Below, piece by piece: positions 4,822-42,500 of a stretch of 60,277 nucleotides of DNA (positions within the stretch are counted from its first letter, which is position 1; each line of letters opens with the position of its first letter). The translations under genes and the position numbers were made by a program. The stretch spans positions 1 through 60,277 of IMG/VR virus record IMGVR_UViG_3300042154_003205; one strand, given 5' to 3'. The notes under the pieces are model-generated. The model ran no database searches, was not told where the DNA came from, and saw only the letters and a program-made list of their open reading frames with translations. Source of the DNA: a virus.

Positions 4822-7251
4822 TTAGTTGCTGGCTACCTGTGCTAATCGCTCACTGGCCTTGGCAGTGGATGCTTGACTGCGACGAATTTCTTCCAGCAGC
4901 CCAACCATTTGTTGTTGCAGGCCTTGATCACCACCTCTTTGCATTTGTTCTGCAAATTTACTGATATTGGTCACAGCAGACTTGAATTCATCCCCCATGG
5001 TTTCTTTGAAACTTTGACCAATTTGTTCAGCGGCTTCTTTGTCTATTTCCAAACTGGGCATGGCACCCAACAATGCACCTGTGTTGGCTGTTGTGGGCAT
5101 GGCATTGGTTTTGAAGCTGTCAATCTGCTTGAGTATTGCTCCTTGACTGTCAATCAATGCTTGTTGTGCAGGGCCAGTATTCATCATGCCCGAAGATATG
5201 TCTGCATAAGCAGCATCAAAGCCTTTGTTGGCACCTGGATTAACTTTGGTCTTCATGCCACTGGTTATATTGTCAATTGCTTTGAGCATTTCGCTCTGCG
5301 GATCCGCCATTTTGTTCTTTGACCGGTCGCCGGTGACCATGCCAAACAACTTGGTCAAATCAGTATTTTCATCTTTGTTGAGCACACGCTCGCCCCGATG
5401 CAACTGTGCAATAATGTCTTTGGGCTCAAACAGTTTGCCAATTTCACCTGATGTGCCATCTGCTCTTTGTGGAGGATTAAAAGGATCATATCTTGGACCA
5501 CCGGGTACACGTGGTGGTTCTGCTGGTGGCGGTGGGGGATTGGTCACTGATGGCGGTCCGGTTATGATCACCGGCAATGGGTTCTGACGAGTATACGGAT
5601 TAGGAACTGGACTAGGAAATCTTACACCACCTGGTGGTGGGTTTTGTTGCTCAGCCGATGGTCCGGTGACTCCATCGCCAGGTTGGGCCACAGGTATAAT
5701 AGCTGGATTTGTTCCTTCGCCTAGCACAGTGCCAGGACCCAGACCCCCACGTGCATCCAACCCTGCTTTGTTACCAACAATAGGGCCACTGCCTAGTTTT
5801 TTTCTCAGGTCCACCACCAGTTTATTAAACTCAGTGGCCACCGATACCATGGTATTTTTTGCTAGATTTGGAACGCCTGTTTGCACAAATGCCTGCAACG
5901 TCAGCATGGTATCATTTTGTGCCTTGCGTAGTTCTGCTTGTGCATCTACTGTCTTGCCGGCTGTGACAAACTGAGTCTCAGTGGCTGCTTTAGCATCTGC
6001 CAACTGCTGTTCAGAATTTTTCTTTGCCATCATTCCCATTTTGGCAGCATTGCTGTATGCACCAAACAAGTCATCAAACACTCCAACTTTGCCCAACACA
6101 CCCATTTTTTCCAATGTATCACTGCCAGCTTCCAGTGTTCGTTGCCGGGAGGCAGCAAGACCTGCTTCGTCTCCTCGAAAACGTCCTGCTTTTATATCTT
6201 CAGTTTCGCGTAGACCTTGACCTTGAGTCAACATGTTGTATTGTCTAGCTGCTTCGGTTTGCAAATTCCCCGACACAATGTCTGCAAAACCTTTTTCTTG
6301 TCCCATGCTCTTGGCAATGATCAATCTGTCCTGCAACTGCTTGACTTCTTCTGTTTTGCCTTGTCTAGTCAACTCATCTATAGTGGCTGCAAAACGCTGA
6401 TTGCTCATGGCTTCGTCCAGCGCATCTGACTGTTGCTTGGCACTGATACCGGTAAGTTTGGTCAGTGTATCTTGTTCGCGTATGAACTTGACTGCACTGT
6501 CAGCTAATTTTTTATAGTCCTGTTCTTGCCCAAGAGACAATCGATTTTGCATTTTGGCAAATCGCAACGCAGCGTCGGCCTGTTCATTTTCTTCAAGTCC
6601 CAATCTGCGCAAACCTTCTTCATACTTGGCCATACCAGCACCAAGATCAGCAAAGTTCTTGCGACCTTTGGCCACTGTGCCGCCCAGCAGTGCTAGGTCA
6701 TCAGCATTTTGTGCAGCCATGGCCAAAAATCTGTCAAGTTTGTTGACATTCAGTCCCAGTTTTTGAATGTCTTCGAAAAGTCCTTCAATACCGTCAGCAC
6801 CCACAGCTCCGCTTGCAGCCATTTGACTGAAAGCCTCATACATATTGTCAGCTTGGATGTTGGCAGTTTTTGTAAGTTCGGCTCCTTGTTTTAATATCTG
6901 TGTGGTCAAAAACGTAAAAGCAGCAGCCAGTCCTTTGACTATGGCTCCACCAGGCGTCAGCAAACTCAGTCCCACTGCTGCTGTTTGTGCAGCGTTGACC
7001 ATGTTGTCTATGGAACTGTTGAATACTGCGGCACCTTTTTCCCCGCGATACATGGCACGAGTATAGTCGCCCACTGCGTCAGCCAGATTGCCCATGATGC
7101 CGGTAGCAACCTGCACTTTGAATCCAAAGTTTTGTATGCCAGTTTGTGCTTCCAACAGCTTCTGACTGGTTTCGGGCAAAATGTAGCCAAAACGGCGCAT
7201 CTGTTCGTTGACTTCTTCTGTGATCCTGGCGAGGTTTTCTTCTGGCGTCAT
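4822..7251 (-). CDS. Tail tape measure protein (gp29 counterpart)
   Basis: This 809-aa protein is predicted to set tail length and occupy the tail-tube lumen. Residues 1-75 are helical. A hydrophobic, glycine-rich segment at about 85-120 (AAVGLSLLTPGGAIVKGLAA) is typical of tape measures. A long A/Q/K/E-rich helical region runs to about 490. A proline-rich linker (about 520-610, including NPPPPPAEPP) follows, then a GEIGKLFEPKDIIAQLHRGE motif at about 615-635 that recurs near the C-termini of phage tape measures, and a final helical part. I start at 7251 (MTPEENLARI) because a perfect late promoter lies 25 nt upstream; an in-frame ATG at 7335 would lie upstream of that transcript. At about 1.5 Å per helical residue the tail would be roughly 110-120 nm. 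Sequence identity with T4 gp29 is not obvious. Confidence 0.75.
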   Translation of the reverse strand: MTPEENLARITEEVNEQMRRFGYILPETSQKLLEAQTGIQNFGFKVQVATGIMGNLADAVGDYTRAMYRGEKGAAVFNSSIDNMVNAAQTAAVGLSLLTPGGAIVKGLAAAFTFLTTQILKQGAELTKTANIQADNMYEAFSQMAASGAVGADGIEGLFEDIQKLGLNVNKLDRFLAMAAQNADDLALLGGTVAKGRKNFADLGAGMAKYEEGLRRLGLEENEQADAALRFAKMQNRLSLGQEQDYKKLADSAVKFIREQDTLTKLTGISAKQQSDALDEAMSNQRFAATIDELTRQGKTEEVKQLQDRLIIAKSMGQEKGFADIVSGNLQTEAARQYNMLTQGQGLRETEDIKAGRFRGDEAGLAASRQRTLEAGSDTLEKMGVLGKVGVFDDLFGAYSNAAKMGMMAKKNSEQQLADAKAATETQFVTAGKTVDAQAELRKAQNDTMLTLQAFVQTGVPNLAKNTMVSVATEFNKLVVDLRKKLGSGPIVGNKAGLDARGGLGPGTVLGEGTNPAIIPVAQPGDGVTGPSAEQQNPPPGGVRFPSPVPNPYTRQNPLPVIITGPPSVTNPPPPPAEPPRVPGGPRYDPFNPPQRADGTSGEIGKLFEPKDIIAQLHRGERVLNKDENTDLTKLFGMVTGDRSKNKMADPQSEMLKAIDNITSGMKTKVNPGANKGFDAAYADISSGMMNTGPAQQALIDSQGAILKQIDSFKTNAMPTTANTGALLGAMPSLEIDKEAAEQIGQSFKETMGDEFKSAVTNISKFAEQMQRGGDQGLQQQMVGLLEEIRRSQASTAKASERLAQVASN

Positions 7252-7262
7252 GGTGCTGTACC

Positions 7263-7270
7263 TATAAGTA
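7263..7270 (+). promoter_or_regulatory. Late promoter for gp26 (TATAAGTA)
   Basis: TATAAGTA has one mismatch to the T4 late box and stands 23 nt before the gp26 ATG. It is half of an 8-bp inverted repeat, ACCTATAA (7260-7267) with TTATAGGT (7280-7287), whose other arm belongs to the minus-strand promoter. Confidence 0.55.
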
Positions 7271-7276
7271 GAACTA

Positions 7277-7293: not shown

Positions 7294-8136
7294 ATGACCC
7301 AATCTCACAATCCGCTGCGACAATTTTTCCGACAACCTGCCATCTACTTGAAGTTGCCCAGTGCTGGACGATACTGGCCGGCTGCGTCCTTGGATTTACC
7401 TGCCAACGGTGAACTGCCAATCTATCCCATGACTGCCATTGACGAAATTACCTATCGCACTCCAGATGCCTTGTTCAACGGTCAGGCCGTGGTCACTGTG
7501 ATTCAAAGTTGTGTGCCCAACATAAAAAATGCCTGGCACATGCCCAATATTGATGTCAGCCCGTTGCTGATTGCCATACGCATTGCCAGCTATGGACATG
7601 AGATGGCACTGAACACCACCTGTCCCTCATGCAATCACGAAGAAGAATATGCCTTGGACATGCGCACTGTGCTGGACCAAATTCGTTCACCAGACTTTGC
7701 TGAGACCATTGACTATGGCGATTTGGAAATTGTTTTTAATCCTGTGAACTATGAACAACAAAACGCCAGCAGTATTGCGCAATTTGAACAGCAAAAACTC
7801 TTGAGTGTGTTGCCCGCATCAGACTTGCCAGAAGAAGAAAAGATGACTCGCTTAACACAGGCCATGAAAATCATAACTGATCTCACCATCAACATTGTGA
7901 CTCAAAGCATTGCTGTGATCAAAACACCCGGTGCTGCTGTGACCAACCATGAGCAAATTGAAGAATTTTTGAGAAACTGTGACAGCAAAATTTACAATCA
8001 AATTCGAGATCATGTGGTATCACTGCGACAACAAAGCGAGATTGCACCATTGAAAATTGTCTGTACCGAATGCAGTCATGAATACAATCAACCCATGGAT
8101 CTGGACATTGCAAATTTTTTCGCATCCGCCTCCTAA
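7294..8136 (+). CDS. gp26: Baseplate hub assembly protein gp26
   Basis: This 280-aa protein resembles the T4 gp26 family (T4_baseplate family), which acts in tail hub assembly. Recognisable features are the N-terminal LPSAGRYW, PMTAIDEITYRTPDALFNGQ (about residues 48-67), then CPSCNHEEEYALDM (about 110-123) and a second CTECSHEY near residue 257. The four cysteines could bind zinc, a feature of this family in marine phages. I chose the ATG at 7294 because the longer upstream frame lies antisense within the tape measure gene. The last codons, gca-aat-ttt-ttc, form a canonical -1 slippery site; see the fusion entry. It is divergent from the tape measure gene, with which the product probably works. 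Confidence 0.85.
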   Translation: MTQSHNPLRQFFRQPAIYLKLPSAGRYWPAASLDLPANGELPIYPMTAIDEITYRTPDALFNGQAVVTVIQSCVPNIKNAWHMPNIDVSPLLIAIRIASYGHEMALNTTCPSCNHEEEYALDMRTVLDQIRSPDFAETIDYGDLEIVFNPVNYEQQNASSIAQFEQQKLLSVLPASDLPEEEKMTRLTQAMKIITDLTINIVTQSIAVIKTPGAAVTNHEQIEEFLRNCDSKIYNQIRDHVVSLRQQSEIAPLKIVCTECSHEYNQPMDLDIANFFASAS

Positions 8137-8351
8137 TCTCTTCTCCTGAACAAATCAGTTCCTATGTAGACCGCTTAGATCAGGAGGCTGAACAAATCAG
8201 ATCAGAAAGTTTGAGATTGGCCTGGTACATGCGCGGTGGTGCCACATACAACGATGTTATGCAGATGAGTTCCACAGAAAGAAAACTGGTCAGTGAGTTG
8301 GCCAAAGAAAATATTGAAACCACAAAGAAATCTAACTTACCTTACTTTTAA
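7294..8351 (+). CDS. gp26-gp51-like fusion by programmed -1 frameshift (candidate)
   Basis: A -1 shift at 8112-8121 would replace the last few gp26 residues with a 77-residue tail, giving about 352 aa. The site holds two overlapping perfect heptamers in the zero frame, A AAT TTT (8112-8118) and T TTT TTC (8115-8121). The -1 frame is open from just after a TGA near 8078 through to TAA at 8349-8351. It encodes a protein-like sequence, SPEQISSYVDRLDQEAEQIR, then LAWYMRGGATYNDVMQMSST and a final KKSNLPYF. There is no ATG in this frame until 8228, inside the conserved part. In T4, genes 26 and 51 are adjacent. In lambda and P2, frameshifted chaperone pairs (G/GT, E/E+E') serve the tape measure, and the tape measure is next door here. 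The TAA overlaps the next ATG (TAATG). The frameshift itself is inferred. Confidence 0.7.
8112..8121 (+). promoter_or_regulatory. Slippery sequence for -1 ribosomal frameshifting
   Basis: AAATTTTTTC contains A AAT TTT and T TTT TTC in the gp26 reading frame, both of the form X XXY YYZ that lets two tRNAs re-pair after a -1 slip. It lies 13 nt before the gp26 stop. I see no strong upstream ribosome-like stimulator and no obvious pseudoknot directly downstream. Confidence 0.7.
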
Positions 8352-10025: not shown

Positions 10026-10418
10026 TTAAAGTTTAATGTGATTATGATAATGCAATAGAAACAAAGTAAAATCCTTGTCAAAAATATTAATGCTTACAAC
10101 TCCGTTGGCATTCCAAATTGTACTAAATTCTGTTGTGTCTAAGTGTGTTGGTTTAAACTCGCACAATTGCAACAGTACTTGCGGATTGATTTCTATATTG
10201 CCTAACCATAAATTAGAAAGTTTAACAAATTTATTATTTTGATTATTAAGTATGATTGAAATTTTGTTTGGTAATTTTATTTTGCAGTCTACTTTTACGG
10301 GTTGATTGTGTAATTGTTTTATATCAGATAGTATGTTTCCGTCACAATCTTGTATGACCACATCTACTGATTTGATACCTGGCTCAAATTCTAAGAATAA
10401 ATTTAGATCTGTGTTCAT
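10026..10418 (-). CDS. Hypothetical protein, predicted beta-rich
   Basis: This 130-aa protein is not recognised. It is rich in alternating hydrophobic strands (VDVVIQDCDGNIL, VKVDCKIKLPNKISIILNNQ) and contains KLSNLWLGNIEINPQVLLQL (about residues 67-86), which suggests a small beta-sandwich such as a carbohydrate-binding or jelly-roll fold. The base composition is very AT-rich. It is the last gene of the minus operon, and its start overlaps the radical SAM gene by 4 nt, so the two are probably coupled and may act together. Confidence 0.5.
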   Translation of the reverse strand: MNTDLNLFLEFEPGIKSVDVVIQDCDGNILSDIKQLHNQPVKVDCKIKLPNKISIILNNQNNKFVKLSNLWLGNIEINPQVLLQLCEFKPTHLDTTEFSTIWNANGVVSINIFDKDFTLFLLHYHNHIKL

Positions 10419-11761
10419 ACCACTACAAAATTACATTCTTTGCTACATATTTTTTTAAGTTCGTTATGATGAATTGTTCGTTGTGCTGGAGATATGTTTA
10501 ACTCTTGGTTAACCCATCCCCGTGCAGAATCTGCATTTATGATATTATATTTTTTAGAATCACGATATAATTGGGTGTTAGGTATAATGCCCAATGGTAC
10601 TATCTGTACTGACTTAACAGAATTATTTGCAAAATGTTTTCGATCTCTGAACCACTGTTTGATAGTTTCATAATCTTCATGTGTTTCCGATGGATACCCT
10701 GAGATCATCAATAAGTCTACTAGTATACTATACTTCTGTGTCATCTGTAAATGATAATCGAGGTCAGAGTTTTCAAAATTTTTGCCAAGGAGATGCCGCA
10801 CTCGAGGTATCACGCTTTCTACACCAAAAAACAAGATAGCATTGTTTTGTTGAAGTACAGCCCACATTTCTTCAGGATGGCTGTTTTGTGGTCGTATGAT
10901 AAATGACCCTTCCCAACTTATCTGTTCGCTTCTGAATTTTTTTTGATTGTACTCGGCAATCTTGACTATCAGTTTTCTGAACTCTCGTAGATTGCCATTG
11001 GTTATGCTGCTTCTAAAATCAAAGTGATAGACATGATGTTGGTCAATTTGATACATCATTTCGTCAAATATAAAGTCGGCTGATTTGTATTGAAACTTCT
11101 TCCATATTTCGATCACGTCACAAAATTCACAACTCCTTACACAACCACGACTATCAATTAATGGTATAGATGGTTCTCCGTACCAATAAAGATTGTAATC
11201 AGAATAATCAGGATATGGCAGTTTCATGAGATCCTCAACTGGTTGCCAAGTTGACGTATTGATTCCAGGATTTTCCATATTGCCTTGGATGTAGTTTAAA
11301 AATGATATCTCGCCATCACCACTGATGTAGTCGTTGATTAGCTTTGCTTTTTTTATTTTTTCAGCATAATCGTAATTTAATATACCTGGGCCACCTATCA
11401 CAATCATAGCGTTTGGAATCATCTGTTTTAACAATGCACATAACCATGTTGTAAATACTTGGCAATCAGCAGCAAACAAACTTAACCCAATGATTTTTGG
11501 GTTAAGTTTTACAATTTGATTTGCAGAATAATGCAACATTGAATTGACTTCATCAATGATCTCATCACGTATGATTTGGTTGTAAAAAAAATCTTTAAGA
11601 TAAGATTGATGGGTACTGGTTTTAAATTTTAAAAAAATATCTACATTGAGATCCAATGCTACACTATCAATGCCGTGCTGTGCCAGTACAGATTTAAGCA
11701 CTGCCGGAGCGGCTAGTGCTCTATTTGTTTCAATCAGTGGCATTGCTGCAATGACTATCAT
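10415..11761 (-). CDS. B12-binding-type radical SAM enzyme
   Basis: This 448-aa protein has the layout of B12-dependent radical SAM enzymes. Residues 1-150 form a Rossmann-like domain (MIVIAAMPLIETNRALAAPA, IIGLSLFAADC, MIVIGGPG, then YISGDGE) that matches a cobalamin-binding domain, though a clear DxHxxG motif is missing, so B12 may not be bound. About residues 205-212 carry the cluster motif C-VRS-C-EF-C. Further on come ISWEGSFIIRPQ, LFFGVESVIPRVRHLLGKN and LLMISGYPSETHEDY, typical of the radical SAM barrel in this subfamily. The substrate is unknown. Relatives modify lipids, pigments or peptides. Its neighbours (an SDR and a second radical SAM protein) suggest an accessory pathway. The gene is AT-rich. 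Confidence 0.8.
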   Translation of the reverse strand: MIVIAAMPLIETNRALAAPAVLKSVLAQHGIDSVALDLNVDIFLKFKTSTHQSYLKDFFYNQIIRDEIIDEVNSMLHYSANQIVKLNPKIIGLSLFAADCQVFTTWLCALLKQMIPNAMIVIGGPGILNYDYAEKIKKAKLINDYISGDGEISFLNYIQGNMENPGINTSTWQPVEDLMKLPYPDYSDYNLYWYGEPSIPLIDSRGCVRSCEFCDVIEIWKKFQYKSADFIFDEMMYQIDQHHVYHFDFRSSITNGNLREFRKLIVKIAEYNQKKFRSEQISWEGSFIIRPQNSHPEEMWAVLQQNNAILFFGVESVIPRVRHLLGKNFENSDLDYHLQMTQKYSILVDLLMISGYPSETHEDYETIKQWFRDRKHFANNSVKSVQIVPLGIIPNTQLYRDSKKYNIINADSARGWVNQELNISPAQRTIHHNELKKICSKECNFVVV

Positions 11762-11766
11762 GTTGA

Positions 11767-12195
11767 TTAAATTTTGTTTATGATGTGTGAGCCATGTACT
11801 CTGACTGAGATATGGCCATTGTAATATCCTGTTGATTCCAATACTCGCCTTGCAAACTGTTCTCTTGCCTCAATGTAACTACATTCAGACTTTGATTTGC
11901 AATAGTAAAGTATTTCTCTGGAGAAGTTTTCGGTGCCTAGTGTGATTACGTCTGCGGTTAATTCTGGGCTTGACCCGTAGTACTCACGCCAGTCTGAATC
12001 GACTTTTGTTCGTATCTTCTTCCGCTTTTTGATGCCGTTCTTTTGTTTTACTGTCTTGTAGGTTGTTTTACTAAATTTCGCTAATTTTTTGCCTATGTAC
12101 TTGCGTCCAGATAGATTATTTGTGATCTGATAAACAAATCCCACACATTCTTCGGGTAAAGTCTCAACTGGGGTGTCTTGATATTGCCATGTCAT
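11767..12195 (-). CDS. SegE-like GIY-YIG nuclease domain protein
   Basis: This 142-aa protein contains GFVYQITNNLSGRKYIGKK (about residues 19-37), the two-part GIY-YIG core in the form GFVYxITN...KYIGKK, followed by a lysine-rich insert and DWREYYGSSPEL (about 68-79), then a helix with a conserved Glu (YIEAREQFARRVLES). This matches the group of phage SegE-type homing-endonuclease relatives. These proteins nick or cut DNA and can spread themselves or neighbouring genes. It stands free between an SDR and a radical SAM gene with short gaps. Whether it is an active homing enzyme or a repurposed nuclease cannot be told. Confidence 0.75.
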   Translation of the reverse strand: MTWQYQDTPVETLPEECVGFVYQITNNLSGRKYIGKKLAKFSKTTYKTVKQKNGIKKRKKIRTKVDSDWREYYGSSPELTADVITLGTENFSREILYYCKSKSECSYIEAREQFARRVLESTGYYNGHISVRVHGSHIINKI

Positions 12196-12228: not shown

Positions 12229-12813
12229 TTATGCCTTGTGTTCAAAGTTCACGTAAAAAGTTGCCTCTTCTATCACAGTATTCGGAGACACTGTGGTAGC
12301 GTATCTTATAAAATTGCTAATATCTGTTAATGCTATACCGTTTCCAGTCCAAGTAGGTCTGCTACGGCTTAGTTCTGTATTCAATCGATCTGGTGTGATC
12401 AACGTGGTTCTAAACTTCACTAGATTTTGTTTGAATGATTGCGTGCCTTGTCGGCTAGCGTGACTAATCGCTGCCTTGGCCACACGATATGTTTCAAATC
12501 TTGGTTCTGGCGCAACAATGTGTTTTTCACCTGAACTACCAACGTTGAAGATCCAACCACTCTTGCCAGCAGTTCGCCAGGCATCATACACAGCAAAATA
12601 CAACTGCGCCTGACCAAAATTGGCCCAGGATTCTTGTGGGGGACCATCAAATGCATTGTTTACAAACACATCGTATTCTAAACTCAGCGTGGCAATCTCC
12701 TGTGTATTATGATTGATATCAAATCCATTGGCACGACTTGCACTGTCTGCACCAAACACATCAGCTAGATGTTGCCCTAGTCCTCGGCTGCCACCTGTTA
12801 CTAACATTTTCAT
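12229..12813 (-). CDS. Short-chain dehydrogenase/reductase
   Basis: This 194-aa SDR has the nucleotide motif TGGSRGLG at residues 6-13, VNNA at 51-54, a Ser in NVGSS (93-94) and the catalytic Tyr109-x3-Lys113 (YRVAK). These are the four hallmarks of a classical SDR that reduces or oxidises an alcohol or keto group with NAD(P)H. It is shorter than typical SDRs (about 250), mostly through short loops. I start at 12813: an AAGGAGG site lies 10 nt upstream, and this ATG overlaps the preceding TGA (ATGA). The longer reading from 12837 would start inside that ribosome site. It probably works with the radical SAM genes on either side. Confidence 0.85.
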   Translation of the reverse strand: MKMLVTGGSRGLGQHLADVFGADSASRANGFDINHNTQEIATLSLEYDVFVNNAFDGPPQESWANFGQAQLYFAVYDAWRTAGKSGWIFNVGSSGEKHIVAPEPRFETYRVAKAAISHASRQGTQSFKQNLVKFRTTLITPDRLNTELSRSRPTWTGNGIALTDISNFIRYATTVSPNTVIEEATFYVNFEHKA

Positions 12814-13928
12814 TTGTTGGATCCTCCTTGATCCCATACTTTTGTAAATTGTTCACCGCAGGTCATTGCGCATTCAAACAGTCTATTACTGTTGTTGAAT
12901 GACGCTGAGAGATCAGACCAAAATTCATTGGCAAATATTTCAGGCAACGTGTTGTGATGTATGTTCAAATTGTCTAGCCCATACCGTTCTAAAAATTCAC
13001 GCACTTGATTTTTACCATTCACGGTACTCAACGGGTTGGCGCCAGGCAATGTGCCATCTCTAAATCTTGCATCATACAAATTGTGATTGAAAAAATTACA
13101 AGGCAATACTGTGCCTTCAGCATTAATTGCTACCTTGTTGCCCTTCAAGGCATCACAACGTATGGGTGTGGTGTCAAAATATTCTTTAATGTTGATATGT
13201 TGTTTTTTAAGCTCAGGCAAATATTGCATGCTACGATTTCTATACTGCTCTTGGCTGGGAGGCTCAAGCACATAATTTTCGTTGGCCACAGGCCATGAAT
13301 CCAGTTCAGTCATGGTGTGGTGATCTAAAAATCTACCGGTTTTGCGTATCAGTACATTTTGAAATCCCAAAGCCTTGCCGTATTGTTTGACCAAGTCAAT
13401 TTGATATTCATTATGTTTGAACACAATGAAGTTCCATTGTGCCCGCCCACCTGCGTTGATAAAAGCAGTGGCATTGTCGATAACCTTGTTGTATTGTACA
13501 TTCTTTCTGTACAAATGTAAAGTGTCAGCTAATCCATCAATGCCAAAGTCTATTTGCCCATATCCATTCATGATACCAGCTATCTCTGCCCAATAGTCAG
13601 CGTCATGTGCTCCGCCATTGGTGTGTATGTACAACCACAGCGTGGGATTTTTAGATCTAAAGTCACGTAGTATTGCCAAGAAATCTGGATGCATTATGGG
13701 ATCACCATAACTGCCACAGAAAAACACTTGCTTTAGTCGCTGGCATAATTCACGGTCAAACACTTGATCAATTGTCACACGTGATAAGTGTACAAGTGGC
13801 ATGTAAGGATTGATACCTGTGCCTAATTTGTTACGGGGACACTGAGGACAGGCAGCATTACAATAAGAGGTAATTTCTATCTGATACTCCGCAATATTTT
13901 TGTAGTTAAACATAGGGCAACTTTTCAA
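12810..13928 (-). CDS. Radical SAM protein with SPASM-like C-terminus
   Basis: This 372-aa protein carries the radical SAM motif CNAACPQC (Cys23, Cys27, Cys30), preceded by EYQIEITSYCN. It then has VFFCGSYGDPIMHPDF (about residues 68-83), the glycine-rich SAM-contact region, and LWLYIHTNGG. The C-terminal part has further cysteines in IRCDALKGNKVAINAEGTVL followed by PCNFF, and CAMTCGE near the end, consistent with an auxiliary iron-sulfur (SPASM/twitch) domain. Such enzymes often modify peptides or sugars. The gene is coupled to the SDR by a 4-nt overlap. Start alternatives are MKSCPMF or the internal MFNYKN. Confidence 0.85.
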   Translation of the reverse strand: MKSCPMFNYKNIAEYQIEITSYCNAACPQCPRNKLGTGINPYMPLVHLSRVTIDQVFDRELCQRLKQVFFCGSYGDPIMHPDFLAILRDFRSKNPTLWLYIHTNGGAHDADYWAEIAGIMNGYGQIDFGIDGLADTLHLYRKNVQYNKVIDNATAFINAGGRAQWNFIVFKHNEYQIDLVKQYGKALGFQNVLIRKTGRFLDHHTMTELDSWPVANENYVLEPPSQEQYRNRSMQYLPELKKQHINIKEYFDTTPIRCDALKGNKVAINAEGTVLPCNFFNHNLYDARFRDGTLPGANPLSTVNGKNQVREFLERYGLDNLNIHHNTLPEIFANEFWSDLSASFNNSNRLFECAMTCGEQFTKVWDQGGSNK

Positions 13929-15197: not shown

Positions 15198-15639
15198 TTA
15201 TAAAATAAAATCTAGTCAATGGATGCACCCAATTGAATCTTCGACCACCGTCTACTGTTCCGCTATAATAACGAAGTAACGGAAACTGAACACGGTCAAT
15301 AATAAAGTTATATAACGCAGAGTCATAATTTGCATTGATATCTTGTTGTGGTATAGGCTGCAAAAGAAATTTGTTTAGCGACAAATAAAAAATTCCATTT
15401 AACGGTAAACACTTAATTTCTTTATTACAAGTTTCCACAACTTGTTCCAAGTCAAAAAATGAATTTACCAGATAGATACACATGTCTCCTGCAGCACTTT
15501 TTTTTCCTAAGATATCTTCTAGATGTTTGCTATCGCCAATGTATTTAATTTTATGAATATCATTGTGTGTGACAAAATCCAGCAGCTCATGGTCTTGTAA
15601 AATCATGTCTCCGTGGTACCATTGTAAATGAATATTCAT
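15169..15639 (-). CDS. Hypothetical protein downstream of gp46
   Basis: This 156-aa AT-rich gene is not recognised. Visible segments are WYHGDMILQDHELLDFVT, IYLVNSFFDLEQVVETC, GIFYLSLNKFLLQPIP and RRFNWVHPLTRFYF. It lacks membrane helices and clear catalytic motifs. It begins 21 nt after gp46 and overlaps the next gene by 29 nt; the three genes from 13942 to 15639 look like a co-acquired set. Confidence 0.4.
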   Translation of the reverse strand: MNIHLQWYHGDMILQDHELLDFVTHNDIHKIKYIGDSKHLEDILGKKSAAGDMCIYLVNSFFDLEQVVETCNKEIKCLPLNGIFYLSLNKFLLQPIPQQDINANYDSALYNFIIDRVQFPLLRYYSGTVDGGRRFNWVHPLTRFYFINENTNKNFF

Positions 15640-15660
15640 AGTGATTAAACTATAAATTGC

Positions 15661-17742
15661 TTATGTAACATCAACATCGGTGTTATAACTAGTAAATCCA
15701 TTTTCTTTCACAACACGCAAAATATTTTCCACACGGCTGGTCAGTTCGTCTCTGTGCGATACCAACCAAACTGATTTGTTGCGCTCACGGGTCATTTTCT
15801 TCAGCAATGCCAGAGCGTTTTCTACACCTTGTGTGTCCAAACCAGAATCAATCATTTCGTCAATAAACAAAATGTTAATAGGGTGATACAAACTTTCCCA
15901 CACATCACGGAATGCCCATGACATACTTAAAATAAGTCTATTGCGTTCACCGCGACTCAAGTTGTCAAAGTCCAATTCACGTCCCAGTTCCTCGATGCTT
16001 ACACTCAAATCGTTTTGGAACTTCACGGTGTGTGGCAATCCAATTCGATCCAGATACCATGTGAGTCGAGCGTTCAGGTAACTCAAGTTTTGATCAATAA
16101 TCTTCTTGCGAACAAAACTGTCCTTGCTTGTGAGCAGTTTCAACAAGAACTCTTGATGATCTTGTATTTTGGTCAGTTCGTTAATCTTGTTGTAGTCAAC
16201 AACTTGCAATGCTTGTTGTTGCATGTCATCAATCTGTTCGCTGTAGGGATCAGTTTCAGCGTGTTTGCTGGTGATCTGTTGTAGTAAATTATTTACCTGT
16301 GCAGAGTGCTTAACAGCCTGTGCTTCTGTGTCGTAATGTGTAACAGGAGGAGCACCCAGTTCCACAGGCACATGGCCTGCAAGTTGTTCAACATAAGGAT
16401 CTGCTTCTGCTGATTTGTCCTCAATCTTTTGCTGTAAGTTTTCTACTTCACTGCTGTGTCGAATGGCTTCTGCTTCAGTTTTGTAGTAGGTAGTAGGTTT
16501 GACCCCCAGCTCGCCCAATGCTTTGAGTGAATCAGTATTTTCAATCCACTGACCGTTGGTGGACAAGGCTTGTAGTGCAGACTCTTGTAACGCCTTGTGT
16601 TTGGCTTCCAGCACACTTTCGTGAGCACCGTCATGAAACTCTTGACCACAGGCATAACACTTATGTGCTTCTAGCTCAGCAATCTCTACTCGCAGTTTAT
16701 CTGAAGTCTTTTGTTCTCGAGCTTCATCTGTGACACAACGAGCAATTAGTTTTTCAAGTTCGGCAATGTCCTTGACCTTTTGATTATACGCGGCTAAGTC
16801 TTGGTGTGCTTGTAGTTCTGCAGCAATGTCAATATGACCGAGTTGAACGTAACTGACTTTTAACGCTGCAATCTCTTTGGTTTGTGTTTGTTGCCATGCA
16901 GTTTGATATGCCAACAATCGATCATGTGAATCTGCTTGCTTTTTCTTTTCATTCCACACAGCAAGATCTTTGTGTGCCAACAGTTCTGCTTCAATATTGA
17001 CTCGGGCTAGATCATCGTATTGCCCCACAAGATAAGCCAAGTCGCTGTCGTATTTCTTTTGCCACAGCCCCTGTCTACGGCGCAGGCTTTCGATTTGTTC
17101 TTCAATACGCTTGTTGGCTTCTTGCACTGCACGTACTCTAAACTCTTCAGAGGTAATTGAGTCTTTGGTGGCCTTGTTGAGTTCCTTGATACGCTCAGCA
17201 CGTTCACTCAATACTGTAATACCCAACAACTGCTCAATTATGGTACGTTGTTCGTTGGCTTTCAAACTCAAGAACGGCTCTGTGTAGGTGTTCAAGGCCA
17301 GGATATGTTTGAACATGTCATGGCTCATGCCAAACACACGTTCAATAGCATCTTGTGTTTCACGACTGTCACCTTGGGCATCGTCTGTGGCAGTTTGTTC
17401 TTCGCTGTCCACATAGAAGCGCAACACATTGGGCTTGCGCCCACGTTCAATCTTGTATGTTTTACCATTCACAGCAAAGTCAAGACTGACCAACATGCCT
17501 TTGCCATTGGTTTTGTTTACCAGATTGTCCTTGCGAATATTGCTTAGAGCATTGCCGTATAATGCATAACTCAGTGCATTGATGATTGTGGTCTTGCCTG
17601 TGCCGTTACGAGATCCGTCACCGCCTAGGTCCAAGTTCTCACCCAGTACCAAGGTAAGGTCTTGACGGTCAAAGTCAATACCCTGTGTGGCATTGCCCAC
17701 ACTCATAAAGTTCTTAACGGTAAGATTTTTAATTTGGATCAT
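15661..17742 (-). CDS. gp46: Recombination endonuclease subunit gp46 (SbcC/Rad50 family)
   Basis: This 693-aa SMC-type ATPase pairs with gp47 to resect DNA ends for recombination-dependent replication. It has Walker A in GSRNGTGKTT (about residues 43-52), a zinc-hook CYACGQ at about 361, the ABC signature LSRGERNRL at about 597 and Walker B in ILFIDEMIDS at about 624, followed by the D-loop GLD and the switch His in LVSHRDEL. Two long coiled-coil arms flank the hook. T4 gp46 is about 560 aa, so the arms are longer here. The arms contain internal repeats; see the findings. It overlaps the SGNH-like gene by 14 nt, and three genes separate it from gp47, unlike the tight T4 pair. Confidence 0.95.
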   Translation of the reverse strand: MIQIKNLTVKNFMSVGNATQGIDFDRQDLTLVLGENLDLGGDGSRNGTGKTTIINALSYALYGNALSNIRKDNLVNKTNGKGMLVSLDFAVNGKTYKIERGRKPNVLRFYVDSEEQTATDDAQGDSRETQDAIERVFGMSHDMFKHILALNTYTEPFLSLKANEQRTIIEQLLGITVLSERAERIKELNKATKDSITSEEFRVRAVQEANKRIEEQIESLRRRQGLWQKKYDSDLAYLVGQYDDLARVNIEAELLAHKDLAVWNEKKKQADSHDRLLAYQTAWQQTQTKEIAALKVSYVQLGHIDIAAELQAHQDLAAYNQKVKDIAELEKLIARCVTDEAREQKTSDKLRVEIAELEAHKCYACGQEFHDGAHESVLEAKHKALQESALQALSTNGQWIENTDSLKALGELGVKPTTYYKTEAEAIRHSSEVENLQQKIEDKSAEADPYVEQLAGHVPVELGAPPVTHYDTEAQAVKHSAQVNNLLQQITSKHAETDPYSEQIDDMQQQALQVVDYNKINELTKIQDHQEFLLKLLTSKDSFVRKKIIDQNLSYLNARLTWYLDRIGLPHTVKFQNDLSVSIEELGRELDFDNLSRGERNRLILSMSWAFRDVWESLYHPINILFIDEMIDSGLDTQGVENALALLKKMTRERNKSVWLVSHRDELTSRVENILRVVKENGFTSYNTDVDVT

Positions 17743-33100: not shown

Positions 33101-33595
33101 GTGATTGAACCAGACATGCCCACCATTGATACACTCACCACCGAATATCAAAACTTGCAAGACTACAAAATGATTTCAGACAACATAGTAATCAATTCAG
33201 TGGTGTTCAAGCCCTTGTTTGGGCCCAAAGCCGCACAACAGTTGCGAGCCACAATCAAAGTCATTCGTGCGCAGAACTCAACAGCCAGTACCAGCGAAAT
33301 AAAAAGTGCTGTGCTTGCAGAAATGAATGCGTATTTCAGCATAGACAAATGGAATTTTGGCGACACGTTTTATTTCTCTGAACTGGCAGCATATCTACAC
33401 AGACAACTGGGTAGTATAATTAGTTCCGTGGTGTTGGTACCCTTGGACCAGCAAAAGAGTTTTGGCGATCTGTATGAAATTCGCAGCCAACCCAATGAAA
33501 TTTTTGCCAATGGTGCTGTTATCGACAACATAGATGTAATTGAAGCATTGACCAGTACTAACCTACGTACTGCACCAGGCAGCGGAGTAATTTAA
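30116..33595 (+). CDS. gp6: Baseplate wedge protein gp6
   Basis: At 1159 aa this is much longer than T4 gp6 (660 aa). The N-terminus (FGVEDWKQIYQTYREADFQS, FIDYLRLYYPETFNDYIESS, FIALLDVMAFMGQALAFRTD, residues 9-80) is the conserved gp6/gpJ-like wedge domain. The C-terminus (about 1040-1150: VFKPLFGPKAAQQLRATIKV, YFSELAAYLHRQLGSIISSV) is the gp6 dimerisation part. Between them lie long insertions of beta-rich modules. gp6 forms the ring that joins all wedges. The gene is followed by the giant gene, whose ATG overlaps its TAA (TAATG). Confidence 0.88.
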   Translation: MATTTRQTAIFGVEDWKQIYQTYREADFQSYDFETLRKSFIDYLRLYYPETFNDYIESSEFIALLDVMAFMGQALAFRTDLNTRENYIDTAERRDSVVRLANLVSYTAKRNTAAEGFLKVFNVTTTENVVDYNGVNLSNVTVNWADPTNPDWQEQFTAIINSALVDSQKVGRPGNRQTILGVRTDEYGINLVPGFLPVIPYTATVDGINMPFEATTSTSVGRDYVYEPAPQPNTVFNVLFRNDQLGFQSSNTGYFFLFKQGILQNQDFNLAERIANRTVDINVEGVNNMDRWLFQLDNLGNISREWQYVENVYTAAAQRNNVLQPIYSVTSRANDQITMIFGDGVFSEIPVGIFRAYVRASNGLQYIINPEEMQNVVLPISYTDRNGNLQTITFTCGITRPVSNSQAREPIGEIKQRAPARYYTQNRMVNGEDYNLFPYTQYNSIIKSKALNRASIGTSRYLDLVDNTGKYSSTNTFSSDGALWRQNILPTILFSYDNRNDIADVITNQVQPALIGPTAKQFYYENFPRVTSTTVPLSVTWLAGYTWNQSTTMANETTGYFRNTTTSAIWPSGTPIPVGESTTTMFKYVIPGALIKFVPPTGYYFDRNNRLVLGSPTRADERVEIWASPQLIVGDGYNGGLGNLTSGAGPVTINNFVPTGAIVDTIIPLFVTDLPTAVEQAMTEQILLNRNFGLGYDSNGDITGTPYTWYIITSTNLKVYESNGTTVAAWSQQYADQNAPGLDSSWMISFVVQNQNYTITFRGLAYNFGSVLQTRFFFYEDQLIYDSRTGTIIKDFVNILAVNTQPNSTESLPGDIYTTIIGQPVESDGYVDDFQVLVSYRDADNDGVPDNPDFFDEVVGPATTAGPYVFLQLTVDFDNLQRYLLVEQGVVIYDYGTLDEIELAKTEWTPGQVFYAYEEDAFYQLSISVTGVRTIVAVSGWIARTGRQSLYFQYRHNSPLTNRIDPGTTNIIDLYVVTLSYYTAYQNWLRDTTGTVIEPDMPTIDTLTTEYQNLQDYKMISDNIVINSVVFKPLFGPKAAQQLRATIKVIRAQNSTASTSEIKSAVLAEMNAYFSIDKWNFGDTFYFSELAAYLHRQLGSIISSVVLVPLDQQKSFGDLYEIRSQPNEIFANGAVIDNIDVIEALTSTNLRTAPGSGVI

Positions 33596-36500
33596 TGGCA
33601 CGTACAAGATCAGTTGATTTTCTTCCACAAATATTTCAAACTCCAGTCAACAAACAATTCTTGGCGGCTACACTGGACCAAATGGTTCAAGAGCCCAAGT
33701 TTAAAAAGACACAGGGCTTTATTGGGCGCACTGTGGGACCTGGGGTCAATCCTAACGACCGGTACGTAGTGGAACTGGACAAAACACGTCAGGATTATCA
33801 ATTGGAACCAGGGGTTGTCAGTCTAGAACCTGACACCGATAAAATCAAAAATGTCATCACTTATCCAGGTATCAATGATGCTATTGGATTTCAAGGTGGT
33901 GATCAAAACAGGCCAGACCAACTGTACAACAGCGAATACTATGTCTGGGATCCGTTTGTTGACTATGATAGTTTTGTTAACTTCAGTCAGTACTATTGGA
34001 TACCTGAGGGCCCTCAAGCAGTAGATGTGGCCGCTGCCGGTTTGCCCACATCAGCCAACTTTGCAGTTACCAGAGAGAATGGCGTGTACACTTTCTCAGG
34101 GCTGTCGGGAGACAACCCTGTTGTCAATCTAGTGCGTGGCGGCAATTACACATTTCAAGTTGCCCAAAACACCAAAGAAACTGTAAACTATCGTGTGACC
34201 AACAATGGGATTACATCATACGTTATAGATCAACAGTCTAATCCTACGTTGACCTTGGCTCGAGGCAATACCTATGTGTTCAACATCACACTCAATGGCG
34301 TGTATCCTTTTTGGATAAAAACAGCACAGACGCTAGGTACAGGCAACGCTTACAACACCGGTGTACTCAGGAACGGCAGCAGTTTTGGATTAGTAACTTT
34401 CACTGTGCCACAAGACGCTCCAGACACACTTTTTTATGTAAGTGAAAATCAGATCAATCTGCGTGGTACAATAAACATTATTGATGGTACTCCCGGAACT
34501 GGTCCAGGATTTTGGATTCAAACCTCACCGGGAATAGCTGGTGTAGTTCCTTCTACGCCCAACATCAGTAGTCGCGATGTGTCAGGTGTGACTAATAATG
34601 GTGATGATCTTGGCATAGTCACATTCAATGTACCACAGAAAACATCGCAACAATTTTACTATGATCTTGTGGATGTAGGGCCCATTGATCTTTTGACTAC
34701 ATTGCAATTTGATCAAATTAACAATCAACCATTGCAACAGTTCATAGCAACCTACGGTGGCATTGACGGTATCACATATCTAGAGACCAGAACTTTGGTG
34801 TTTACCAATCCCATATTAGATGCCGAAGATGGTGGTTGGCTACAGACTACATTATTTGATCCTTTGCCTAGATCGGACGCATTTAATGGTCAGATTGGCA
34901 GCTACGATTCAGAACTTTTTGATCAGGCCACGGTAGTCCCACTAGCTGACAGATATCAAGTGTGGCAGATTAACATAGTAAATGAAGAAGGTGTGGACTA
35001 TATTAATCTCACCAAAATAGCCAATATTGCCTCAAATCAAAAGTTTACCATAAGCTACGGTAGCACTTTTAGCAATACCAGTTGGTACAAAAATGCCGCA
35101 GGATATTTTCAACAGATCCCATTATTAACTGCTGCATTTGATCAATTGTACTATCAAGATGGCACTGATCCAGAAATATTTGGTCGTATATTGTTGTTGG
35201 ATCCTGTTGAGTCTAACACTACATTTATTGATCAGATTTTGGGACAAAAAAATTACGTATCGCCTGCTGGTATAACATTTACCAACGGACTCAAGGTTAG
35301 ATTTACTGGTGATGTTGTGCCAGCCAGTTATGGTTCAGGCACTTTGTCTGTTGAATGTTCAGCTACCACCGCCGGCAGCAATTATTTCACTTGCGAGTCT
35401 ACCGCAGGACTATACGAAGGTGAACAAATTATATTTCCAGTCACCAGCAATGGTGTGGTTGACGGACAAATTTACTACATCAAAAGCATAGCGGCCAACG
35501 GCATTCAATTCTCTATTAGCACAGTAGCTGATGGTGCCACAGTGACGTTGAGCACAGATGTGTACCAACACACTGCCACAGCCATCAGCAACAATGAATA
35601 TTATGTGGCTGGGGTAGGCACTGCAATTGAATTGTTGCCTGTTAGAAATTTTATCACACCTGAAACTTATGTAGAAGATGCCAATGACAGTACCATTGCA
35701 TCAGAACCCGACCAACCTGACTATCTTACAATTGATCGGGCCAGTCAAGACTTAAATCCCTGGACTCGTAGCAATCGTTGGTTCCATGTAGACGTACTTT
35801 TGGCCACAGCAGATTACAACAATGTCGTTGCGGTGCTGGACAACAACTATCGGGCCAAACGCCCTATCATCAGCTTTAGGCCTGACATTAGATTGTACAA
35901 CATGGGCACTGAAGGCAAACAGCCGGTGGAGATCATTGATTTCTCAGAAACTGATGCTTTCAGCAACATTGAAGGCAGCACAGGATACACTGCTGATGGA
36001 TACACCTTGGTTGATGGCAGTAGAGTGATTTTTGCAGCTGATGAAGACCCTAATGTACGTAACAAAATTTACGTGGTACAATTCATCACACCTGACACTG
36101 TGCCTCCGCTTATTGTGCAACCTATCATACACTTGGTGCTGGCTGAAGATGGCGAAGTATTGACAGATCAATCAACTGTGTGCTTGGCTGGCAATACCTA
36201 TCCTGGTGTGACTTTTTGGTATGATGGTGTTGAATGGATCGAAGCACAACAAAAAACTGGAGTACAACAAGCACCACTGTTCAATGTGTATGATTTGGAT
36301 GGTGTGAGTTTTGGCGATAGAGCCAAATATCCGTCCAGCACATTTACAGGAAGCAAACTGTTCAGTTATGCAGTGGGCGATACAACCATACTGGATCCTA
36401 TATTGCAATTCCCGTTGCAGTATTTAAATATCAACAACGTTGGCGACATTGTGTTTGAAAACAACTTGTACAAAGATACATTTTTGTATGTACAAGACAA

Positions 36501-39500
36501 TGTGTCAAGCACGTTGGATATCAGCTCAGGTGCTGCGAGAGAGTATGCCTCTCGCACTGCTTTTGCCAAACTTATTGGCTGGCAAACTGCCGCGGCAACC
36601 AGCCAGCAGTACCAACAATTTAAATTTACCTATACTGGTCAAACACTGAAACTTGATGTAGCCGTAGGCACCACCACAGTGTTGCCACCAGTCAAAATTT
36701 ATGTGGGATCACAGTTTCTCAAATCTGATCAATTCAGTTATGTTGTGAGCAGCAACAGCACAACCATCACGCTGAATGAAACTTATTTTCCCACAGATGT
36801 TATTGAAGTACTGGTGCTGAGTGATCAACCCAGTTCGGTGGGATTTTATCAAGTTCCTGTCAACTTACAAAACAACCCCTTGAATGGCAACAGTCCAAGT
36901 TTCACACTGGGCACTATTCGAACTCAATATGAAAGCATTTGTGAAAATTTATCACAGTTGTCGGGACCAATCTCAGGTGCCAACAACAGCAGAGACCTGG
37001 GCAACATTGTGCCCTATGGTGAAATCATATTGCAACAAAGCTCACCGCTTACCTTGGCTGGTTATTTTTTGCGCAGTGAACAGTTTAATATATTTGCCAG
37101 CCTGCAGTACAACAGCAATGAGTATCTCAAATTCAAAGGACAGATGCTGAATGCTGTGGTCAACTCTGTTGTGCAACCCACTGATACCACCAGCGATGTG
37201 CTGGATGCAGCCATAGAAACCATTACTCAGGGACGAGTAGAAACACAACCGTTCTACTGGAGTGACATGATTCCTTCAGGTGCAGTGTATCAACCCACAA
37301 CATATACAGTGTCAAACACCACCACCAACACGTTTGATATTATACAAGTTTATAACTACACATCAGCCAATTATCTTGGCATGAATGTTTATTTGAACAA
37401 TGTTATTCTAACTCGTGATCTAGATTATGTGGTGGCCACAGATGGGCCACGAATTACAGTGTTGGTTGATCTAACCTTGGGTGATGTGTTGTTGTTGCAG
37501 GAATATACTGAAACTTATGGCAGTTTTGTGCCCAACACACCCACCAAAATGGGACTGTATCCGGCTTGGCGCCCAGAAATTGTGGTACAAAAAACCAGTG
37601 CGGGTACACAGTCTGTGATTGTGGGCCATGACGGCAGTATCACACCAACATTTGGCGACATTAGAGATGATGTGTTGTTGGAGTTTGAAACAAGAATTTT
37701 CAACAACTTGAAACTGGATGGAAACCCTGTGCCCATTGAACTCAGTGATGTCATACCTGGACAGTTTAGATCAACTGGCTACAGTGAAAGTGACATCAAC
37801 AACATCTTGGCCACTGACTTTTTGAGTTATGTGGCCTGGAACAAGTTGGATTACAAAGCACAAGACTATTCGGCCAACAATGAGTTTTCATGGAACTACA
37901 GTGGTAGTCAAAGTCGACTGGACAATGATCCATTGCCCGGTGCCTGGCGCGGCATCTATCGCTACTACTATGACACGCAACAACCTGAGTTGACCCCTTG
38001 GGAGATGTTGGGGTTGACCATCAAACCCGACTGGTGGGACACAGTGTATGGTGCGGGCCCATACACTCAAGACAACTTGGTGTTGTGGGACGATTTGGCT
38101 GCTGGTTTTGTGGCAGACCCCGGGGATCCACATTTTGAGCCTGCTTATGCTAGACCAGATTTAACAGCGGTCATTCCCACCGGCGATGAAGGTGCGCTGT
38201 TGAGTCCTTTTGATGCAGTGGTAGGAACCTACAACGACCAAACATTCCGCAAGAGTTGGGTCGTAGGCGACGGCGGCCCAGTTGAAGCATCGTGGTGGAA
38301 TAGTAGTGCTTATCCTTTCTCAGCCATGCGACTATTGGCCTTGACTCGTCCAGCCAAGTTTTTTGCACTGTTTGCTGACCGAGACTTGTACAAGTTCAAT
38401 ACAGAATTAAATCAGTATTTGTACAACAATAGGTATAGATTGAATGCCAGAGACATTGAAGTCTACGGCAACGGTGTCAGCAAAGCCAGTTACATCAACT
38501 GGATCGTGGACTACAATCGTCAAAGTGGCCTTGACAGCACTGCAGATCTCATGGCTGACCTTGATTTTCTTGATGTGCGCCTGTGCTACAGAATGGCCAG
38601 TTTCTCAGACAAACAGTACATCAAAATTTACACAGAAAAGTCCAGCCCCAACAGTACCAACACCACACTGTTGATTCCTGATGAAAGTTATGACTTGGTA
38701 TTGTACAAAAATCAACCATTTGATCGTGCCAGTTATTCATCGGTGGTGGTACAAAAAGTCACAGGCGGATATGCTGTTTTTGGTTACAGTACCACACAAC
38801 CTTATTTCAATGTATTGCAGAGTCAATTTGTGGGGCAATTACAAACTTACACTGTGGCCGGAATCACTGTTCAAGTTCCTACATTCTACACCGACGTGGT
38901 ACAACAAGTGCCGTATGGATTTATATTTGCCAATGAAACTGCTGTGAGTGCTTTTTTGTTGAGTTATGGCAAATATTTAGAGCAGCAAGGTTTGATATTT
39001 GATGACCTTGACAATGGCTACATCTTGAACTGGAGCCAAATGGTCACTGAGTTCTTGTACTGGAGTCAACAAGGCTGGGACGAAAATGCCTTGATCAATC
39101 TCAATCCACTGGCATTTAGATTGCAGATATCTCGACCTCAGGCCGTGGTTGACAGCATTGCGGCACAGACCAATGAAAATATTTTGTTGGATCAAAATCG
39201 TACTGAATTGCCCACACGCAATCTCATTATCACACGCTTGGACAACACGTTTACTGTTGAGCCAGCAACAGATCAGACCTTGAGTTACATTGATCTCAAA
39301 TACACATCATACGAACACATGGTTGTGTTGAACAATGCCAGTGTGTTTGGCGATTTGATCTATCAACCTATCACTGGTGCTCGTCAAAGCAGATTAACTC
39401 TAATTGCAGCCAATACCACTGAATGGAACGGCAATGTTGACGCACAAGGGTTTGTCCTTAATCAAGACAACGTTCAAGAATGGAATTCTTTCACTACCTA

Positions 39501-42500
39501 TACCAAAGGTGAAATTGTACGGTACAAAGGTGCTTACTGGTCAGCAGCAGCCATTGTGCAACCCACAGCAGTGTTCAACGCCAACAACTGGTTGGCCAGT
39601 GATTACACTCAAATAGAATTAGGCTTGTTGCCCAACTTGGCCAACAAAGCCAATCAGTTGCAAAACAGTTACAACATCAACAGTGCCAATCTTGAAACAG
39701 ATAATGACTTGTTGAGTTACGGCCTAATTGGATTTCGTCCACGCCAGTACATGGCCAGTTTGAACCTGGACGATGTCAGCCAACTCAATGTGTATCGACA
39801 GTTCTTGGGCAGCAAAGGCACAATCCTCAGTGCTGAATTGTTTTCACAAGCCAATCTGGGCAAAGAATCTGCAGACTATGACATATATGAAAACTGGGCT
39901 GTACAACGTGCAGTATATGGCGCCAATGCCAATCGCAGTTATTTTCAGTTGAGATTGAATCGTGCGTTACTGAGTTCAAATCCAAGTTTGGTACAAATTA
40001 TTGAGCCGCAACAAAGTAGTGTGGCTGATCAAACTGTGTTGGTATCAGATATTTGGAGACAAAGTTACAAGATAACATCACCAGACATATTGCCAGTGAC
40101 CACTGCGGTGCCCACCGACACTGCATTGCCCACCGCAGGCTATGTTAATTTAAATGATGTGGATATCACAGTATTTGATATTAACAACACTGACAGTTTA
40201 GCTGCCAGCATTGACAATATTGGTGTTGGTACCAACATCTGGGTGGCCAAAATCAATGCCTATGACTGGGCCATTTACCGCAGTCAATCAGTGCCAGGTA
40301 TCATTGGTCATGTGTGTGATAATCTTGACGGCACCAGTCGTGTGATATTCAGCAAGCAGCACGGATTAGCAGTCAATGATCGACTGATTATTCGATTTTT
40401 TGATCCTGAAGTCAACGGGGTATACACTGTGTTGTCAGTGCCCAGTCTTGACACAGTTATCATTGCATTCAGCTTCTCCGGCAGTCGTACCATTGTGAAT
40501 GGGACCGGCATTGGATTTACTCTAGAGACTCAACGTGTGGCACAGGCCAGTGACGTACTAAATCTTCCCTATGCCAATACCATTCAACCAGGCGCCCGAG
40601 TCTGGGTGGACGACAACGGTGCTGGATTATGGAGTGTGTTACAAAAAGAAGAAGTATTTACCGAACTGTTGAGTCTGAGTCCTGTAGAAGTTGACGAAGG
40701 CGAACAATACGGCAGTGCTGTAACACAAGCGCAAAATAGATATGCTGCCTTGGTAGGCAGCCCAAGATATCGTTTGCCTGCTGGTGCCACCGAATGGAGC
40801 ATTTTTAATACATATGCTGTAAATTCTATTGTATATGTGGTAGATCCATATCAAACAGAATTTTTTCAATGTATTCTTGCAGTCGACAACGATGGATCTA
40901 CATTAATAGACATCTACAACACCACGTACTGGACACCTTACTCGCTGAATTCATTGCCGCGTCGCGGTGGCGTGTATGTTTATGTCAAAAGTGACAGTGA
41001 TGTGTATGCCCCAATATCAGCCTTGGCTCCTAATGATGCTGTGTTGAGCCTAACAATTACTGATCCAGTCAGTGGCCAATATGCAGCCCGTGAATACGGT
41101 GCCTCAGTGGACTTTGGCAATCAAACCTGGGCAGCAGCAGGTGCTCCGGGCAGTCTTGGTGCTGGCGGTCTTGGTACACCTGACAATGGTTATGCAGTAG
41201 TGATTTATCGAGATCCACAGTTGGCTGCACCAGGAAACATTCCCTACGGACAATGGCAGTTGTTGACCACACCAGGTTCACTGTTTGCCGCTGAAGAATT
41301 TGGTCACAGTGTGGCTGTAAGCCAAGACGAACGTTGGTTGTATGTGGGTGCGCCCGGTGCCAACGCTGTGTACGCTTATGGTCGAGTGGATTGGTCGCGA
41401 CAAATTTTGCAAGCGTTTGGAAATGGAACCACAACTGACTTTTACATTGGTGACATCATTCAAATTGATGCCAACACCCAACTCACAGTCAGCGTGGACG
41501 GTGATGAACAAATACTGGGCACTAACTACACTGTGGTCAATGGGTTGACCACAGTGAAATTTAACACAGCACCTGCCGAAGGTGATGCTGTTGAAATTTT
41601 TAGAACCAGCCGTGTCATATTAGATTATCAGATCTATAGAAATTTATCTGGTACTGGTGGTTCAGGATCAGGCGTTAAATTTGATGTTACTAGAAAACGC
41701 GGAACTGTTCAAGTGTACGTGGTTGATGGAGGGTTGGGCTATACCGCCGGCGATGATATAACTATTCCTGCAGCCAGTTTTGGTGGCGGTACAAGTCCTG
41801 CCAATGACATTACACTAACTGATGTCACTGTATCAGTTGGCGGTGTGATTACAACCTGGGACGGATCTCCCATTTATACTCCACCCACTCTAACCACACA
41901 ATTTAGTTTGAATGAATACTTGTACACTGTAAACAACATTTACAGTTTCTCAGTGCTGGTTGACAATGTGTTACAACGTCCTGAAATTGACTACACGTTC
42001 AGTGGAGACAGCACACTGGGCAATGACATTAATTTTATAAACTCACCAGCTGCTGGTTCCACAATTTTCATCCGCGCTGAAGGTTATTTTGAATACGCAG
42101 GCACCATTACCAATCCAGCCAGTGTGACTGGAGACAGATTTGGCCACAGCGTCAGCACCAGCACAGATGGTAGGCAAGTGCTGATTGGTGCTGCCAATGC
42201 ATTGTACACTGATCCAGAAACCAGTGACACATATTCACAAGCAGGTGGTGTGTATGTGTATGACAGAAATGTACAAAGATTCATATATGGCACAGATGGA
42301 AGCACAACACAGTTCACAGTGTTGGGCACAGTCACAGCACCAGTGAGTGTACTGGTCAATGACACATTCTTGGTCAATGAAGCAGACGCTGCACCAGATG
42401 CTGCCAACGCATTCACAGTAAATGGCAACATCATCAACATCAGCAATGCTAATTTGGTAGTTGGTGACATTGTCGAAATTGAAACCAACGAATTCCAATT

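Follow-up and report, generated by a model that had tools for sequence, protein, structure and literature searches.

The gp26-like locus of this T4-like phage very probably encodes two forms of a tail-assembly chaperone by programmed -1 frameshifting, in the manner of the gpG/gpGT pair. We analysed a stretch of 60,277 nucleotides, positions 1 to 60,277 of IMG/VR virus record IMGVR_UViG_3300042154_003205, hereafter called the window. Sequence comparisons revealed a conserved slippery site, an open -1 frame under selection, homology of this frame to the extension of T4 gp51, and a two-gene alternative in T4. A first-pass annotation of the window had proposed a G/GT-like pair made by -1 frameshifting, and the conserved in-frame heptamer together with a selected tail lacking a conserved start argues for this proposal.

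The gp26-like gene lies at 7294-8136 on the plus strand, and its frame-0 product of 280 aa would be the short chaperone (TAC-N, gpG-like). It matches PF12322 (T4 base plate protein) with an E value of 1.4e-15 over profile positions 42-218 of 219, and phrog_150 (baseplate hub) with 1.5e-16. Judged by these matches across most of the family length, the gene is a member of the PF12322/phrog_150 (gp26-gp51) family. Compared to close relatives its dN/dS is 0.05-0.10, and its AlphaFold2 model has a pLDDT of 87. The 3′ end reads, in frame, 5′-GCA AAT TTT TTC GCA TCC GCC TCC TAA-3′ and contains two overlapping heptamers, A AAT TTT (8112-8118, plus strand) and T TTT TTC (8115-8121, plus strand), which both fit X XXY YYZ in the gp26 frame. 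Overlapping in-frame heptamers close to the gp26 stop had thus been described correctly; the distance from T TTT TTC to the stop codon at 8134-8136 is 12 nt and not the 13 nt given before.

When searching phage records by tblastn, a gp26 homologue was found in 63 of them and the tail in 35. The motif TTTTTT[C/T] was present in frame in all 133 homologues (131 TTTTTTC and two TTTTTTT). After dereplication at a threshold of 75% nucleotide identity, 39 lineages remained, of which 37 carry TTTTTTC and two TTTTTTT. Carriers include jumbo phages, cyanophages, KVP40, a pelagiphage and phiM12. For instance, KVP40 and phiW-14 have T TTT TTC, and HTVC008M and phiM12 have T TTT TTT; Aeh1, which is not among the 133, also has T TTT TTC. 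Fifteen annotated jumbo phages that represent different genera all share the heptamer unchanged, and all have an open -1 frame. Moreover, a survey of IMG/VR added 113 loci, every one with the slip site; 33 of them are relatives of the window and 80 of S-PM2. The position of the gp26 stop shifts from 9 to 42 nt after the slip site across homologues (12 to 42 nt in the 15 jumbo phages) while the heptamer stays. The base preceding TTTTTT[C/T] is always T, though the codon that ends there specifies N, S, D, H, T, Y, R or A. Calculated gene by gene from Phe codon usage and third-position T frequency, the naive chance of such conservation over the 39 lineages is about 1e-43, a figure that ignores residual relatedness. 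The slip site is conserved much more strongly than chance would allow. The alignment of relatives proposed along with the first-pass annotation thus came out in favour of T TTT TTC. Its companion A AAT TTT fared differently: 22 of the 113 survey loci have it, the 15 annotated jumbo-phage relatives lack it altogether, and because of this variability it should be dropped as a slip signal. Many cyanophages harbour GGAGG about 10 nt upstream of the slip, which is missing in other clades. This resembles the arrangement in dnaX, but it may merely reflect Leu-Glu-Gly codons.

The -1 frame of the window is open from 8082 to its stop codon at 8349-8351 and translates as FFRIRLLISSPEQISSYVDRLDQEAEQIRSESLRLAWYMRGGATYNDVMQMSSTERKLVSELAKENIETTKKSNLPYF. 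The extension proper (8121-8351, plus strand; base 8121 is read twice) adds 76 codons after Phe-Phe, and the next reading frame begins at 8351, sharing one base with it. In all likelihood this extension supplies the long chaperone (TAC-NC, gpGT-like) with its C-terminal domain, the equivalent of the extension of T4 gp51. After the gp26 stop, the dN/dS of the -1 frame between the window and its close relatives is 0.05-0.11, compared to about 0.7-7 in the other two frames. The tail is under purifying selection and is a true coding sequence, in line with the earlier description of a protein-like frame that stays open to 8351. The length of the fused product is 346-355 aa across the jumbo and window set despite the varying gp26 stop, with SCTP-2 (380 aa) as the exception. 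Directly after Phe-Phe, an Arg is conserved in the -1 frame. The AlphaFold2 model of the tail consists of four helices and is all helical (mean pLDDT 88). A BFVD search with this model gave no match with E < 0.001, and P0001 alone had no convincing match in Pfam or PHROG.

The tail had been called gp51-like, and annotations and profile comparisons agree with this. The equivalent frame is annotated as gp51 in S-PM2, and the KVP40 annotation names a hub assembly catalyst that resembles the gp51 C-terminus. When gp26 of S-PM2 is joined to its -1 frame, the fusion fits phrog_150 at positions 5-281 of 282 (300.8 bits), and T4 gp51 fits the same profile at 13-280. In profile comparisons, with scores controlled by 150 column shuffles, the -1 tails of cyanophages and KVP40 matched the C-terminus of T4 and RB49 gp51 with an E value of 5.5e-10 (0/150 shuffles), and the jumbo tails, including that of the window, matched the cyanophage tails with 3e-4 (5e-5 in the reverse direction; 0/150 shuffles). 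The direct match of jumbo tails to gp51 is weak, with a score of 18.4 against a shuffled maximum of 16.5 (0/150 shuffles). Two-sided profiles were needed, as E values stayed at 0.06-0.08 when the jumbo tail profile was compared by HHalign to gp51 or S-PM2 as single sequences. By these comparisons the window tail is homologous to the C-terminal extension of T4 gp51, mainly through the intermediate cyanophage tails.

T4 genes 26 and 51 are neighbours, as had been stated, but they lie on opposite strands and are divergently transcribed. Both proteins fit PF12322 end to end (215.6 bits for gp26 and 177.5 bits for gp51), and BLASTP of T4 gp26 against gp51 gave an E value of 2e-6. From sequence, gp51 is thus a full-length paralogue of gp26 with a C-terminal extension, and not the tail alone as the first-pass annotation implied. 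A single PF12322 gene with the slip site was found in the 14 jumbo records with a family match, S-PM2, KVP40, Aeh1, phiW-14, HTVC008M and phiM12. In contrast, T4, RB49 and RB43 have two PF12322 genes, the short gp26 without T TTT TTC and the long gp51, in which a gp26-like domain continues in frame into the extension. This suggests that T4 encodes as a gene pair what the other phages appear to make by frameshifting.

Two further arrangements of PF12322 genes were observed. In Rhodothermus phage RM378 the single PF12322 gene lacks the heptamer and has the 3′ end 5′-...TCC TTT TTT TGG AAT AAG TTA TGA-3′. Its -1 frame is closed, and its +1 frame is open with a tail that resembles the others (SISELRVIAYMYTQQLEEQE). 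This suggests that the gp26 homologue of RM378 uses +1 (or -2) instead of -1 frameshifting, which would fit the use of -1, -2 or +1 shifts in different tailed phages (PMC5009743). Campylobacter phage NCTC12673 harbours tandem PF12322-like genes (record positions 15482-16794), a short gene and then a long one that includes the tail in frame. A single TAA interrupts the long gene, which the record lists as two hypothetical proteins.

In the lambda model, many gpG and few gpGT molecules bind the tape measure protein, and the tube protein is recruited by gpGT (PMC5009743). The first-pass annotation had placed the pair next to a tape measure gene. In the window, the divergent neighbour at 4822-7272 (minus strand, 816 aa) is a candidate by position alone; no significant hit for this protein was obtained in Pfam or PHROG, and BLASTP detected no resemblance between it and the correspondingly placed gene of Phosso. 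The RaK2 gene in this position is annotated as similar to tape measure protein. The gp26 model aligned with the HK97 tail assembly chaperone 2ob9 (gp13) over 100 of 107 residues (Z 5.9, rmsd 4.4), a likeness of predicted fold that is no more than suggestive, with Z below the decisive level; Foldseek of the same model against the PDB gave no match at E < 0.001. It is conceivable, but unlikely, that frameshifting is real and yields structural hub proteins and not chaperones. The records label gp26 as 'baseplate hub', and genetic data favour a place for gp26 in the T4 hub (PMC3004832). However, in the same paper both gp26 and gp51 are counted among the hub assembly chaperones, with gp51 missing from the final T4 particle. 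In addition, the two-form organisation matches that of tail-assembly chaperones; the gene order in KVP40 is tail tube, gp26, tail and a long hypothetical protein, and the 1167-aa protein encoded after the tail in S-PM2 matches the tape-measure family phrog_9570 (E 5.3e-21).

Even less probable is translation of the second frame as a small gene in its own right, from its own start or by re-initiation after the gp26 stop. The frame is annotated in this way in S-PM2, KVP40 and most jumbo relatives, and in some clades an ATG is found 1-4 codons past the slip. Early ATGs (e.g. in the loci L072 and L104, and in KVP40) are not conserved and are without a clear ribosome site ahead of them. In the window, the earliest starts in the -1 frame are TTG 8211, TTG 8217 and ATG 8229, 30 codons or more past the slip and after conserved residues, so that the claim of no usable start ahead of the conserved part holds. 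The PA5oct tail contains no ATG, GTG or TTG anywhere, and several cyanophage lineages have no start codon ahead of codon 18 of the tail. A separate gene would also leave the invariant in-frame T TTT TTC and the Arg following Phe-Phe unexplained, and the same extension is part of a fused protein in T4, RB49 and RB43. Where an ATG lies only a few codons from the gp26 stop, as in some clades of cyanophages and in KVP40, coupled re-initiation could add or replace product.

A predicted stem begins 6 nt past the slippery heptamer in the window, with the 5′ arm GCCTCCT at 8128-8134 pairing with the 3′ arm AGGAGGC at 8182-8188 (both plus strand). The stretch 8125-8200 folds with an MFE of -18.6 kcal/mol (z -2.77). 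Arm pairing was scored by an ungapped script comparison, as MAFFT misaligned the hairpin arms, and within the window clade the stem was paired in every sequence checked but one (L055). Atu_ph07 and Phosso have 10-bp stems and loci like L062 have 17-bp stems at nearly the same place, with different sequences. In a folding scan of the 39 lineages (60-nt windows from 12 nt after the slip-site start, compared to dinucleotide shuffles), the mean z just downstream of the slip was -1.39, whereas upstream it was -0.4 to +0.1. The same lineages show a second dip (z -1.13) close to where the tail frame ends, about 210 nt past the slip. Register and sequence of the hairpin differ between clades, and it does not represent a single homologous structure. 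The folding dip and the stems right after the slip make a frameshift stimulator likely, and the window hairpin is probably such a stimulator. For the jumbo/environmental T4-like clade as a whole, frameshifting may be driven by a dedicated hairpin that selection maintained through changes in its sequence and register (7-9 bp with GCCTCCT/AGGAGGC in the window clade, 10-17 bp in Atu_ph07, Phosso and loci like L062), although we regard this wider claim as somewhat doubtful. If true, an evolving RNA element would set the ratio of short to long chaperone.

The RNA structure also bears on slippage by RNA polymerase, and not by the ribosome, on the T run as the source of the fused frame. A homopolymer of six T is present, which speaks for it, but this run is short for such slippage. 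Moreover, all homologues preserve the phase NNT TTT TTC, 37 of the 39 lineages have C at the end of the run, and stable RNA structure is concentrated just downstream, as ribosomal slippage predicts. We therefore consider polymerase slippage very improbable. That a single gene was split by a sequencing or assembly error, to which homopolymer runs are prone, is refuted by the same split in 133 sequences, including isolates from many sequencing groups, and has practically no probability left.

In the scheme that we infer for ribosomal slippage and its efficiency, the role of the hairpin and the chaperone function of the window locus, the majority of ribosomes would read gp26 through to the stop at 8134-8136 and produce the short form. 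A minority would slip one base back on T TTT TTC at 8115-8121, probably aided by the hairpin that begins 6 nt downstream. These ribosomes would run on to 8351 and make a long form of 352 aa with a helical C-terminal domain. As in lambda, the tape measure protein would be coated by a large number of short and a few long molecules, the long form would bring in tail tube subunits, and both forms would leave the finished tail.

A 2016 paper describes G-T frameshifting as conserved in long-tailed phages 'except T4' (PMC5009743). The first-pass annotation likewise knew of no description of T4 genes 26 and 51 as frameshift-fused. However, passages in two later papers (PMC12846349, PMC10885494) credit the identification of tail-assembly chaperone genes in T4-like phages to Vladimirov, Gautam & Davidson 2022 (Virology 566:9-15). 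PMC12846349 attributes to that study poly-T slippery sequences in TAC-N genes of T4-like phages, and PMC10885494 a short-plus-long gene pair in some of them. As far as these passages describe them, the T4-like genes belong to the same family as the window pair, with a poly-T site in the short-form gene and the long form in the -1 frame, whereas the T4 group has separate short and long genes, unlike the window. Given this credit, the window does not represent a new mechanism. Phage P2, with gpE/E+E', is a contractile-tailed phage with a frameshifted chaperone (PMC5009743), like the window pair. In the TAC locus of Vandenendeviridae and Andersonviridae the -1 frame is open in every genome and a T-rich motif, GTTTTT, is conserved (PMC12846349); these are another phage group, and their motif begins with G, unlike T TTT TTC of the window. 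The gpG/gpGT pair of lambda differs in protein family and slippery sequence, and its slip is seemingly unstimulated, whereas the jumbo/environmental T4-like clade has a candidate downstream hairpin. The abstract of the Vladimirov study reportedly mentions frameshifting in several T4-like groups and a T4 group with separate genes 26 and 51. The mechanism is already known from other long-tailed phages, reportedly including several T4-like groups, with the window as a well-supported new example; the membership of the jumbo/environmental clade and the hairpin after the slip are possibly the new parts. In the jumbo-phage papers that we sampled, the term 'tail assembly chaperone' was absent and 'frameshift' occurred only in the PaBG paper.

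The comparison places an unclassified T4-like lineage and jumbo phages like RaK2, Atu_ph07 and CBB in the tail-assembly-chaperone scheme, and would explain many orphan 'hypothetical protein' annotations (e.g. phrog_18291) as C-terminal frameshift domains. The Straboviridae appear to hold both solutions, frameshifting in KVP40 and Aeh1 and a paralogous gene pair in T4, RB49 and RB43, and the transition between a single recoded gene and two separate ones becomes directly testable.

Several other features of the window were observed. A single open reading frame of 5178 aa (33595-49131, plus strand) lies downstream of a gp25-like gene, and its product is probably a giant tail or fibre protein. Radical SAM proteins are encoded on the minus strand of this T4-like phage genome at 10415-11761 and 12810-13928; the match of the first is weak, and a B12-binding domain was matched too. 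The minus-strand gene at 11767-12195 encodes a SegE-type GIY-YIG homing endonuclease (PF19835, E 7e-32). On the plus strand, 54591-56060 holds consecutively a cytidylyltransferase-like frame, a PfkB-family kinase (54949-55704) and a cupin-like frame, and this cluster adjoins glycosyltransferase-like frames.
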